From: an uncultured Rubrobacteraceae bacterium
GTDB taxonomy: Bacteria > Actinomycetota > Rubrobacteria > Rubrobacterales > Rubrobacteraceae
Direction of reading: 5' to 3'
Assembly: GCA_902806085.1 (NCBI GenBank)
Contig: CADCVH010000118.1
Coordinates: 62,001 to 126,000 of the forward strand
Length of the DNA stretch: 64,000 bases
Below the pieces are notes generated by a model. That model saw only the letters and a program-made list of their open reading frames with translations, did no database searches and was not told the origin of the DNA. Position 1 is the first letter of the stretch. Each line of letters begins with the position of its first letter. Positions 7,027 through 41,881 of this stretch are shown in pieces. The translations under genes and the position numbers were made by a program.

Positions 7027-8829
7027 TCAGGCCAGCGGGACCTCGGGCTCCCCGACCGCCTCAACAACCCTCTCCGCCGCCCTCACGAGGTCCGCGGCCT
7101 CGCCGAGCCGCACAGCCTCCACCACCCCGGAGCGCCGCCTGAGGTAGGCCGCCACGATCCGGGCCTCGTTGGACCCGTTCTTGCCCGCGGGGGGCAGGCT
7201 CTCCTGCCTCTCCATCGCCTCCTCCGCGAAGGCCGCGAGGCCCGTCTCGTCCCCGGCCTCGAAGCCGCGGTGGGTGACCAACCGTCCCGCCGAAAGCGCG
7301 AAGACCTCGATAACGCCGGGCTCCGTCGAGGGCGCGACGACGGCCTGGGCGCCCTCCCCGCTCACGACCGACCGCGCCAGACGCACCCGCTCTATGCCGG
7401 CTATAAGGTCCCGCAGGCGCGCCGCGGCCTCGAACTCCAGCACCCCGGCCAGCCGTTTGCGCTCCAGGACCAGGGCGTGCAGGTGCTCCTCGCCGCCCTC
7501 GCCCCGCAGGAGCGCCACGATCTCGTCCACCACCACGCGGCGGTACTCCTCCTCACCCATCCCCGCGCAAGGGGCGCAGCGGCCCATCTGGCCGTAGAAG
7601 CACGCCTCCCCGTCTCCGGGGCAGCGTTTGAGGGGGAAGACCCTGCCGAGGGCCTCGATGCACGTGTCCAGCACCCCCGCGCTCCTGTAAGGACCTAAGT
7701 GGACCACGCCGTCCTCGGGCTCGTTCTCCGTTACCCTTACCGGCACCGGGTACGGTTCGTTGGTGTCGAGCCTAATAAACCAGCTCGCCTTGTCGTCGCG
7801 GCCGACGGAGTTGTAGCGGGGCAGGAGGCGTTTGATCTCCCTGGCCTCCAGGATCAGCGCGTGCAACTCGCTCTCGGTCTCCTTGACCCGCACCTCGGCG
7901 ACCTCCTCGACGAGGCGGCCGACCTTGCGGCGCCCGTCCCCCCCGTTGAAGTACGTCCGCACCCGCGCCCTCAGGTCCTTCGCCTTGCCGACGTAGAGCA
8001 CGCCGCCGTCCTTGTCCACGAAGTAGTAGACGCCGGGCGTGTTCGGGACGTGCTCGGCGAGGTGTTGCTTTTGCGGCTTGAGCCGGCCCTTCCCGCCCCG
8101 GATCGTCGCCGCCTCCCCCACACTCCTCACCCCGGCCGAACCCAGCAGCTTCAAGAGCCTCCGGAAGACCTCGGTCGTCGCCGAGGCGTCGGCGAGGGCC
8201 CTGTGGTTCGGCGCCTGCCGCACCCCGAAATGGTTCACGAGCGCGCTCAGGCGGTAGCGCCTCAGGCCCGGAACCAGGCAACGGGCGAGCTTCAGGGTGT
8301 CGAGTACGGGGTTGGGCAGGGGCACCCCGTCGCGGGCCGCGGCGACGAACGAGCAGTCGAACTGGACGTTATGGCCGACGATCACGGAGCCCTCGACGAA
8401 CTCCTCGAAGCGGGGCATGACCTCGGAGACCGGGGGCGCGTCGGCGACCATGCGGTCGGTTATGCCGGTAAGGCGGACGACGAACGGGTCGATCGGGCGC
8501 CCAGGGTTCACGAGGGTGGAGAACTGGTCCACGACCTGGCCGCGCACCAGCTTGAGGGCGCCGAACTCGGTGATCCCGCCTCCCTTCCCGGCGGCGGCCC
8601 CCGTGGTCTCCACGTCGAAGACCACGTACGGGGCGTCTTCGAGCGCGAGGGCCGCCGCGTCCGCGGTCCTCAAGGCCTCCTCGTCCCAGACGAACCGGGG
8701 GTCGTCCTTTACGAGCCTCTCGACGAGGGCCCTGGCGTCCCCGTTTGCGTCCGGCAGGGAGAGGAAGCCGGCGCAGACTTCCTCGGGGGCGACCGGCTCG
8801 CGGTCCTTTACGAAGCGGTAGAGGCTAAT
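7027..8829 (-). CDS. DEDDh exonuclease fused to a UvrC-like GIY-YIG nuclease
   Basis: An intracellular DNA-processing protein of about 600 aa. A winged-helix-like N-terminus (about 1-52) leads into a DnaQ-type 3'-5' exonuclease with VVFDVETTG, GHNVQFD and the HRALADASATTEV histidine-aspartate motif. A GIY-YIG domain follows with PGVYYFVDKDGGVLYVGKAK, the RARVRTYF arginine and a C-terminal ESELHALILEAREIKRLLP, plus a UvrC-like KRLAGVLEFEAAARLRDLI helix pair. Such fusions resemble Cho/UvrC and are presumed to act in repair or DNA turnover. The first standard start is TTG at 8673, but coding-quality sequence continues upstream to an ATT at 8829 that has a perfect GGAGGT eight bases before it; I place the start there. 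Confidence 0.85.
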   Translation of the reverse strand: MSLYRFVKDREPVAPEEVCAGFLSLPDANGDARALVERLVKDDPRFVWDEEALRTADAAALALEDAPYVVFDVETTGAAAGKGGGITEFGALKLVRGQVVDQFSTLVNPGRPIDPFVVRLTGITDRMVADAPPVSEVMPRFEEFVEGSVIVGHNVQFDCSFVAAARDGVPLPNPVLDTLKLARCLVPGLRRYRLSALVNHFGVRQAPNHRALADASATTEVFRRLLKLLGSAGVRSVGEAATIRGGKGRLKPQKQHLAEHVPNTPGVYYFVDKDGGVLYVGKAKDLRARVRTYFNGGDGRRKVGRLVEEVAEVRVKETESELHALILEAREIKRLLPRYNSVGRDDKASWFIRLDTNEPYPVPVRVTENEPEDGVVHLGPYRSAGVLDTCIEALGRVFPLKRCPGDGEACFYGQMGRCAPCAGMGEEEYRRVVVDEIVALLRGEGGEEHLHALVLERKRLAGVLEFEAAARLRDLIAGIERVRLARSVVSGEGAQAVVAPSTEPGVIEVFALSAGRLVTHRGFEAGDETGLAAFAEEAMERQESLPPAGKNGSNEARIVAAYLRRRSGVVEAVRLGEAADLVRAAERVVEAVGEPEVPLA

Positions 8830-9856
8830 GGACCCGGACCTCCGCCCGGGCGGACCCCGCCTTCGCCGCCGCGGCGATGGTGCGGGCCTGCGCCTCGGTG
8901 ATGCCGGGTATGGAGGCCAGATTCTCGTAGGTGTACTCGTGGTCGAGAAGGCCGCTGGCGAGCACCCTCGCGCGCGTCTTCATGCCCACGCCCGGCATCT
9001 TGGTCGTGTGGAAGAGCTTGCCGCGCTGGATGCGCAGGGCGTCCACCCCGGCGAGCCTCTCGCCGTCGACAAGGACGCGCTTTAGCGTGTCGGCGAAGAG
9101 CTCGATCTGCTCGGGGTAGAAGACGCCCCGGCCCATGAGCGAAGGCGTCATCGGGAGCGGGTGCAAAAGGTTCGCGTTCCGGACCGTGGTGTGGCCCGGC
9201 GGCTCGTTGGCGCCCAGCGGGTCCGGGTCCCCGAGCCTCCTTGCCTTCTCGGCGTGCTCCCAGACCTGCCCTTCGAGGTCCCTGTCCAGGTCGAGCTCGG
9301 TCTGGACGGGGGCGCCCCGGAAGCGGTCGTTGCGGTTGGCGGCGTGGAGGAAGCGTCGTCCGTTGCTCTCGTTGTCGTGGAACTCGATCACCGCCCGCGC
9401 GCGCTTCTCGCCCATGCCGGGCACCCGCGCCAGGTTCTTGACGTCCCCCTCTTCGAGCAAACCCCGCAAATCGTCCGGGTCGACGGCCTCGGCGGCCTTC
9501 GCGGCGGCCCGCTTGTCCACGCCGCGCACCAGCTCGAGCATCCCCTGGACGGACGTGGGGCAGACGCCGCGCCTGAGGTGGTTGATCTTGCGCACCGCCG
9601 TGAACGCGTTGTGGTGCTCCCAGTGCCACACGTACTCCCGGACCCGCTCGACCGCCGCCGAATCCTCCGGCACGAACTCTATGGTCACCGCGTTTCCGAC
9701 GTAGCGGCCGTTGGTCCCCGGCATGTGCTCCGCCGGATACATCACCTGCACCTTGACCGAGGGCGAATAGAAGGAGAAGCTCACCGGAACGCCCGGCGCG
9801 ACCTCTTTCAGCAACCGCCGGCGGAACACGTTGTCTTCGAGATCCGAGTCAAACAT
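8825..9856 (-). CDS. Protein with three helix-hairpin-helix motifs and a novel N-terminus
   Basis: A cytoplasmic 343-aa protein. Three HhH DNA-binding motifs can be seen: LARVPGMGEKRARAVIEF (middle), TTKMPGVGMKTRARVLAS and LASIPGITEAQARTIAAA (C-terminus). The first 130 residues, including FSFYSPSVKVQVMYPAEHMP and WHWEHHNAF, I do not recognise; they are not the PolX or RadA core. The gene is directly coupled to the exonuclease/GIY-YIG gene, so a shared DNA-structure or repair role is likely. The frame opens at an ATG at 9865, but that ATG touches the -10 box; the ATG at 9856 lies at the expected transcription start and is preferred. Confidence 0.7.
   Translation of the reverse strand: MFDSDLEDNVFRRRLLKEVAPGVPVSFSFYSPSVKVQVMYPAEHMPGTNGRYVGNAVTIEFVPEDSAAVERVREYVWHWEHHNAFTAVRKINHLRRGVCPTSVQGMLELVRGVDKRAAAKAAEAVDPDDLRGLLEEGDVKNLARVPGMGEKRARAVIEFHDNESNGRRFLHAANRNDRFRGAPVQTELDLDRDLEGQVWEHAEKARRLGDPDPLGANEPPGHTTVRNANLLHPLPMTPSLMGRGVFYPEQIELFADTLKRVLVDGERLAGVDALRIQRGKLFHTTKMPGVGMKTRARVLASGLLDHEYTYENLASIPGITEAQARTIAAAAKAGSARAEVRVH
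8836..8843 (-). promoter_or_regulatory. Strong Shine-Dalgarno GGAGGT in front of an ATT codon
   Basis: GGAGGT within the 3' end of the upstream gene sits eight bases before ATT at 8829-8827, whose last base is the first base of that gene's TAG stop. No ATG, GTG or TTG exists in this frame between the upstream stop near 8960 and 8673. This ribosome site is what decides the start of the nuclease gene. Confidence 0.6.
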
Positions 9857-9865
9857 TGGACGCAT

Positions 9866-40428: not shown

Positions 40429-41807
40429 ACGATGCGCGCCCCGTCGTAGCTCTGGAGGAACGTGTCGATCTTCTGGGCGGCCTCGTCGGCCTGGCCCTGG
40501 GCGCTCTGACCGTCGAGCTGGACGGCCTGGATGGCGTCGGAGACGGCCTTGTAGACCTCGGGCGTGTAGCGCGGCTCGCCCCTGCCGCCGGGGAATGCCT
40601 CCTCGCGGAAGAACTTCATCGGCCCCTTGTCGAAGGCGCCCTGCCGCTCGGCCTGCTGCTGCACGGACTTGCGCGGCGCCACGGTGCTGTCCGCACCCGC
40701 AATCCAATCCACCCCCCGGTCTATGGACTGCTGGCTCATAGAGGCGAGCGCCCACGCGCAGAACCTGCCGGCTTCCTCGGGGTTCTGCCCCTTGGAGTTA
40801 GCGACGAACGCCCAGCCGCCAAGATCGGTGGTGTACTGCCCACCCGGGGGCAGCGGGAGCTTGAACGTCCCGTACTCGAAGTCCGGGGCGTTTGCCTCGA
40901 GCGCGGCCACAGCCCAGATGCCGCAGTTCTGGATCGCGGCGTGCCCCTGCGCGAGGTTGGCGACTATGTCGTTTGCCCCGGTGCCGAGAGCCTTGCGCGG
41001 CGCGACCCCGCTCTCGATGGAGTCCTGCCAGAACTGCAGCGCCTGCACGGCGCCCTCCGAGTCGAAGGCGCTCTTCTGGCTGGAGGGGTCCACGGCGTCG
41101 CCGCCGCCCTGCCACATGAACGGGTACCAGGTGAAGTTCTGGTAGTAGCCCGGGTTGGTGTCGAAGAGCAGGCCGAAGGTGTTGCCCTTCTTGAGCTTGC
41201 CGGCCACGTCCAACAATTGGTCCCAGGTCTGGGGTATGTCCCCCTCCGAGAGGCCGGCGTCCTCGAAGGCTTTCGTGCTGTAGTACATCGCCATGGGCTC
41301 CACTTCCATGGGGATGCCATAGATCTTGCCGTCCACGATGCGGGTGGCCATGACGTTCTCGTAGAGGTCGCTCCTGGCCTCTTGCTTTATGTACGGCGTG
41401 AGGTCCTGGAGCACGCCGCCGTTGTAGTACCGCAAAAAGTCCCCGGGGCTGATGATGAACAAATCAGGCCCATCTCCCGAGGAGAAGGCCGTCTGCAGCT
41501 TGGACCCGTTGAGGTACTCCGTGACGGGGATGTACTGCAGCTCAACCTTCGTCTCGTGGCCCTCGTTCCAACCCTTGGCGGCGTCCTCGAACCACTTGCC
41601 CTGCGCCTCGACCTCGCCGCCCGGCCCGTAGAACTGCCAGAACTTGAGCGCGCCGCCGGACCCGGACCCGCCCCCGCACCCGGAGAGAACCGTCAACCCC
41701 GGCCCCGTCACCGCCGCCGCGAACGCGAACGCGGCACCCCTCGCCAGGAACCGCCGCCGGCTCATGCCCCCGGTCTCTTCCCCGCCCACCTTCTCGATGC
41801 TCTTCAT
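40425..41807 (-). CDS. Extracellular solute-binding protein family 1, Tat-lipoprotein
   Basis: A 460-aa binding protein for the MalFG-type importer. The N-terminus has a twin-arginine motif SRRRFLARG and a lipobox LTVLSGCGGG, so it is likely exported folded through Tat and lipidated. LKFWQFYGPGGEVEAQGKW begins the mature domain, and ALAQGHAAIQNCGIWAVAAL-type text (read here NLAQGHAAIQNCG) is typical of oligosaccharide binders. Its gene follows the LacI repressor. Confidence 0.9.
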   Translation of the reverse strand: MKSIEKVGGEETGGMSRRRFLARGAAFAFAAAVTGPGLTVLSGCGGGSGSGGALKFWQFYGPGGEVEAQGKWFEDAAKGWNEGHETKVELQYIPVTEYLNGSKLQTAFSSGDGPDLFIISPGDFLRYYNGGVLQDLTPYIKQEARSDLYENVMATRIVDGKIYGIPMEVEPMAMYYSTKAFEDAGLSEGDIPQTWDQLLDVAGKLKKGNTFGLLFDTNPGYYQNFTWYPFMWQGGGDAVDPSSQKSAFDSEGAVQALQFWQDSIESGVAPRKALGTGANDIVANLAQGHAAIQNCGIWAVAALEANAPDFEYGTFKLPLPPGGQYTTDLGGWAFVANSKGQNPEEAGRFCAWALASMSQQSIDRGVDWIAGADSTVAPRKSVQQQAERQGAFDKGPMKFFREEAFPGGRGEPRYTPEVYKAVSDAIQAVQLDGQSAQGQADEAAQKIDTFLQSYDGARIV

Positions 41808-41881
41808 CTTCCCTTTCCCTTCCGCGCGCCCGTCCCCACGGGTCGCGCTCTCGTCACCCCTGCTCTACTCCAACGTCCGTC

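Follow-up and report, generated by a model that had tools for sequence, protein, structure and literature searches.

A nuclease gene in the 64,000-nucleotide stretch of Rubrobacteraceae DNA analysed here (the window) appears to initiate translation at an AUU codon, at position 8829 of the minus strand, to which the start would have moved from a GUG lying two codons upstream. Comparative genomics lends strong support to AUU initiation, and this reading, together with a presumed coupling to the upstream gene and a presumed limitation by IF3, is in our judgement the best explanation of the sequences, at a probability of roughly 0.85. AUU starts are already known and very rare, and the nuclease adds a case in which the evolutionary states on either side of the switch are unusually clear.

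The nuclease and its start region

The gene (7027..8829, minus strand) encodes 600 residues plus a stop codon and matches Pfam RNase_T, Pfam GIY-YIG and the NCBIfam model NF005906 (PRK07883.1-4, DEDD exonuclease domain-containing protein), the last with a score of 577.6 bits versus a curated cut-off of 495. Nine residues are invariant in 23 orthologues, namely D72, E74, D158, H209 and D214 as well as Y268, Y279, G281 and R289, which we take to be the DEDDh and GIY-YIG catalytic residues. By these matches, the protein is an orthologue of the actinobacterial DEDDh-exonuclease/GIY-YIG nuclease, a DNA-repair-type enzyme. Actinobacterial proteins of this exonuclease/GIY-YIG type, with a UvrBb domain, have been described (PMC1564403), and, as in those proteins (PRK07883, NF005906), the DEDDh exonuclease lies N-terminal to a UvrC-like GIY-YIG part. 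The NF005906 model, in contrast, begins only at about residue 61 and does not cover a conserved N-terminal domain, some 55 residues long, that the family orthologues carry ahead of their exonuclease domain.

The nuclease frame stays open on the minus strand from 8979 down to the stop codon at 7027. No ATG, GTG or TTG occurs in it either over the 50 codons that precede the ATT or over the 52 that separate the ATT from the first canonical start, a TTG at codon 53 (8671..8673). The ATT (8827..8829) is the sole plausible start near a Shine-Dalgarno (SD) sequence, GGAGGT (8838..8843), from which it is separated by a spacer of 8 nt (CCGGGTCC, minus strand). It shares one T with the TAG stop (8825..8827) of a helix-hairpin-helix (HhH) gene of 346 residues directly upstream (8825..9865, minus strand; Pfam HHH_5, 4.2e-10). 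An earlier note on this DNA had described a coding-like frame free of ATG, GTG and TTG above the TTG at 8673, and an ATT at 8829 preceded eight bases upstream by GGAGGT and overlapping the TAG by one base; on rereading the minus strand, all of these coordinates proved correct. In the RNA foldings of this region the ATT was mostly unpaired in the clade, which is weak evidence, and the predicted folds suggest no regulatory structure around the start.

Probable relocation of the start in one clade

A homologue search through whole genomes of the Rubrobacter/Rubrobacteraceae family (n=39) yielded 35 distinct readable HhH/nuclease junctions, in which the two genes overlap or abut and the HhH stop position carries TAG in 34 of the 35. 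All 30 readable relatives outside the clade of the window's genome possess a GTG start at a fixed place, composed of an SD-like hexamer, 2 nt and the GTG, followed after a few codons by Ser-Leu-Tyr-Gly-Phe; the usual form of this junction is GGAGGTCC-GTG-TCC-CCT-AGC-CTC-TAC. Relative to the ATT position, the GTG lies two codons further upstream in most relatives and one or three codons in a few, and the GGAGGT of the clade is the same element that stands 2 nt before the GTG in most of them. The earlier note had reasoned that homologues beginning at or near the ATT would speak for it, and homologues beginning at TTG 8673 against it. The outcome favours the ATT: the relatives begin one to three codons above its position (GTG, 30/30), and no homologue starting at TTG 8673 was found among the readable family genomes. 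As a separate observation, the 2-nt distance between SD and GTG in the relatives is unusually short, yet it is kept family-wide, within the last HhH codons.

The window's genome and four further genomes of the same genus, at 89-94% identity, have lost the ancestral GTG, which is replaced by GGG in four (8833..8835 in the window) and by GCG in one, and all five carry the ATT two codons downstream. In all five, the frame is free of ATG, GTG and TTG for 50-54 codons above the ATT and for about 52 below it. The GGAGGT is exact in four of them; in the fifth, G004, it reads TGGGGT, a weaker SD. In a tree of the N-terminal ~225 residues, the five ATT genomes group together (support 100/99) within the GTG genomes; a single switch from GUG to AUU, in this clade, suffices and is the most likely history of the start. 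A scan of genome contigs returned the same orthologues again and no additional member of the ATT clade. Since five separate assemblies, one of them represented by two contigs, agree on the junction, the ATT is not a sequencing error, and an assembly slip as the source of the missing start was likewise ruled out.

The N-terminal domain

If translation instead began downstream at a canonical codon, either TTG 8673 or a GTG at about codons 56-69, a shorter nuclease without its N-terminal domain would result; no canonical start occurs earlier in the frame, and the late beginning of the NF005906 model is in line with such a start. Under a start at TTG 8673, however, residues 2-52, nearly all of which lie beyond the HhH stop, should drift. 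Their pairwise dN/dS is 0.192 within the ATT clade versus 0.202 for three congeneric GTG relatives, hence the stretch is under the same purifying selection in both, and it is so in all five clade genomes; the remaining parts of the protein show values of 0.07-0.12 within the clade. Nor are the downstream codons themselves kept clade-wide: the position of TTG 8673 holds TTG in two of the five clade genomes, CTG in one and neither in two, while a GTG at index 57 occurs in four of the five and is absent from the window.

Furthermore, an AlphaFold2 model built from 23 orthologues reaches block means of pLDDT 82-92 over most of residues 1-60, and places three helices and a two-stranded hairpin at the N-terminus, with the first helix beginning at residue 3. 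Based on pLDDT and omega, we delimit a predicted domain at residues 1-55 (8665..8829, minus strand) with a helix-helix-helix-hairpin order, a winged-helix layout as judged from the order of secondary structure alone. A structure search with the nuclease model returned matches for the exonuclease and GIY-YIG parts only, and none for this N-terminal domain. Codon 53 falls inside the second and last strand of the predicted domain, so a start at TTG 8673 would cut it there and destroy a confidently modelled winged-helix-like fold. In view of these points, a downstream start seems very improbable to us. The proposal of an AUU start made in the earlier note, in turn, gains from the shift of the start away from GTG in one clade, the purifying selection on the N-terminus, the predicted folded domain and the poor conservation of TTG 8673.

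Conservation of the ATT

The third base of the ATT is forced by the TAG stop of the HhH gene, and its middle T, which all five clade genomes keep, is the wobble base of the last HhH codon, a His codon (CAT). As a background, we considered nuclease-gene codons whose amino acid is unchanged across the five genomes and whose third base is T in the window. None of these (0/19) has a final T in every genome, corresponding to a 95% upper bound of about 15% on background T retention; likewise, none of 23 twofold C/T codons with a T in any clade genome keeps it in all five. Retention of the middle T in 5/5 genomes thus looks unusual, as far as a single site can tell in a single clade of five related genomes. 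Conservation of CAT for the sake of the HhH protein was ruled out, as the last HhH residue is elsewhere S, P, V, L or others.

The same CAT-TAG would be the site of a +1 frameshift that joins the HhH protein and the nuclease, in which case the clade would need no start codon at all. The two frames do overlap at the stop codon, with an SD-like sequence upstream, but the codon that would occupy the P site ahead of the stop differs widely from relative to relative and offers no conserved slippery codon, the SD-like sequence is weakened in G004, and the relatives use an ordinary start. Moreover, tRNA-His is expected to re-pair badly on AUU, and the SD is farther away here than in prfB. We hence regard frameshifting as very improbable.

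All relatives retain the T of the ancestral GTG, which in most of them ends an Arg CGT codon, a minority choice (24 of 202 CGN codons in three relatives). None of the five clade members has this T, in keeping with a start that has moved elsewhere. Initiation at a different non-canonical codon in that place, such as GGG or GCG, would retain the position of the ancestral start (8835-8833), but it is hardly credible, as neither is near-cognate to AUG and the clade is split between the two, whereas the ATT is invariant.

A model for initiation at AUU

We infer that AUU itself is the initiating codon, and envisage its history as follows. Ancestrally, the nuclease would have started at the GUG two codons above the AUU and 2 nt behind GGAGGU. 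This GUG would then have been lost in the stem of the clade by a change that was synonymous in the overlapping HhH gene, and the AUU, 8 nt behind the same SD, would have taken over. The ordinary initiator tRNA would read AUU as fMet, pairing at two of three positions, and the strong SD, now at a more usual distance (8 nt versus 2 nt for the old GUG), would presumably help. Ribosomes terminating at the overlapping UAG of the HhH gene may help to feed the AUU: as the 1-nt UAG/AUU overlap puts the start under the terminating ribosome, reinitiation by ribosomes that have finished the HhH gene probably contributes, and a coupling of the nuclease start to HhH translation, which would fit both this overlap and the strong SD, is plausible. 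Nuclease output would, in such an arrangement, be low and limited by IF3.

Non-canonical starts and IF3

AUU starts are established for E. coli infC and pcnB (according to works cited in PMC5472188 and PMC13009471), Borrelia burgdorferi pncA (BBE22; PMC13398362) and Staphylococcus aureus cvfC1 (PMC13009471), and Belinky et al. (PMC5622118) counted one switch to AUU among 5,080 reconstructed ancestral GUG starts. The nuclease resembles cvfC1 in combining a predicted AUU start with a strong SD (PMC13009471), and resembles BBE22 in that canonical gene calling truncates the protein, as documented for BBE22 (PMC13398362) and predicted here. In contrast to these genes, it encodes a DNA-repair-type nuclease of an actinobacterial family, is the second gene of an overlapping pair, and has its ancestral GTG state still visible within the same genus. 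A further parallel is Streptomyces sigR, whose non-canonical GTC start also lies behind a strong SD, with an upstream GTG position too near to the SD (PMC5472188). However, the GTG of sigR is a false annotation, whereas the GTG considered here serves the relatives as their conserved start and is missing in the clade.

Control by IF3 was demonstrated for sigR, which is repressed by IF3 via its GTC start (PMC5472188), while for the clade nuclease it would be an expectation by analogy. In E. coli, raised IF3 lowers initiation at non-canonical codons and SD-less reinitiation (PMC2268962), and in vitro, weak third-base pairs such as AUU/CAU fare worse as IF3 rises (PMC10158994). IF3 sensitivity of the nuclease start, which the earlier note had suggested alongside a dependence on HhH translation, is thus plausible, and a fair expectation from other systems.

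The IF3 of this family is, moreover, very probably itself made from a non-canonical start, like that of other bacteria, here apparently GUA. We examined the infC loci of the family (L105-L112 and L121-L142), including the copy in the window's genome, which is located outside the window (G000:C10:117807-118310). GTA occupies the expected start behind GGAG in 25 of 25 readable loci, an in-frame stop found three codons upstream of it in several leaves no canonical start ahead of the conserved infC core there, and in 22 of 26 loci the open frame lacks such a start before the core; it is this invariant GTA behind GGAG, together with the missing canonical starts, that points to GUA. A literature search for a GUA start of infC found no paper. 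One may speculate that in this family IF3 controls how much is made from a few genes via non-canonical starts, with infC at GUA and the clade nuclease at an AUU coupled to the HhH gene, so that the state of initiation would tune nuclease dosage, although we consider this broader scheme rather unlikely.

Gene callers limited to ATG, GTG and TTG are predicted to cut a folded domain from the nuclease, and to misplace infC starts throughout the family. Furthermore, as GUG and AUU states coexist in one genus, the cost of the switch, the order of the changes and any control by IF3 should be approachable with matched constructs.

Survey of the window

Comparison of the window with a 140-kb syntenic stretch of genome G006, the two-contig member of the ATT clade, which may derive from an isolate, in which we searched for conserved coding sequence above the first canonical start, revealed no second convincing case. 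Among extensions on a plausible coding strand, the strongest low-omega candidate (41864-41807, minus) was rejected, as it probably corresponds to the ribosome-binding region of a gene with an ATG start. This stretch is nevertheless of some interest in its own right: the 57 bases above the ATG of this substrate-binding-protein-like gene, which carries a Tat-like signal, are unusually conserved versus G006 (41807-41864, minus strand; GGAAGGGAAAGGGAAG-ATG), and probably represent its ribosome-binding region.
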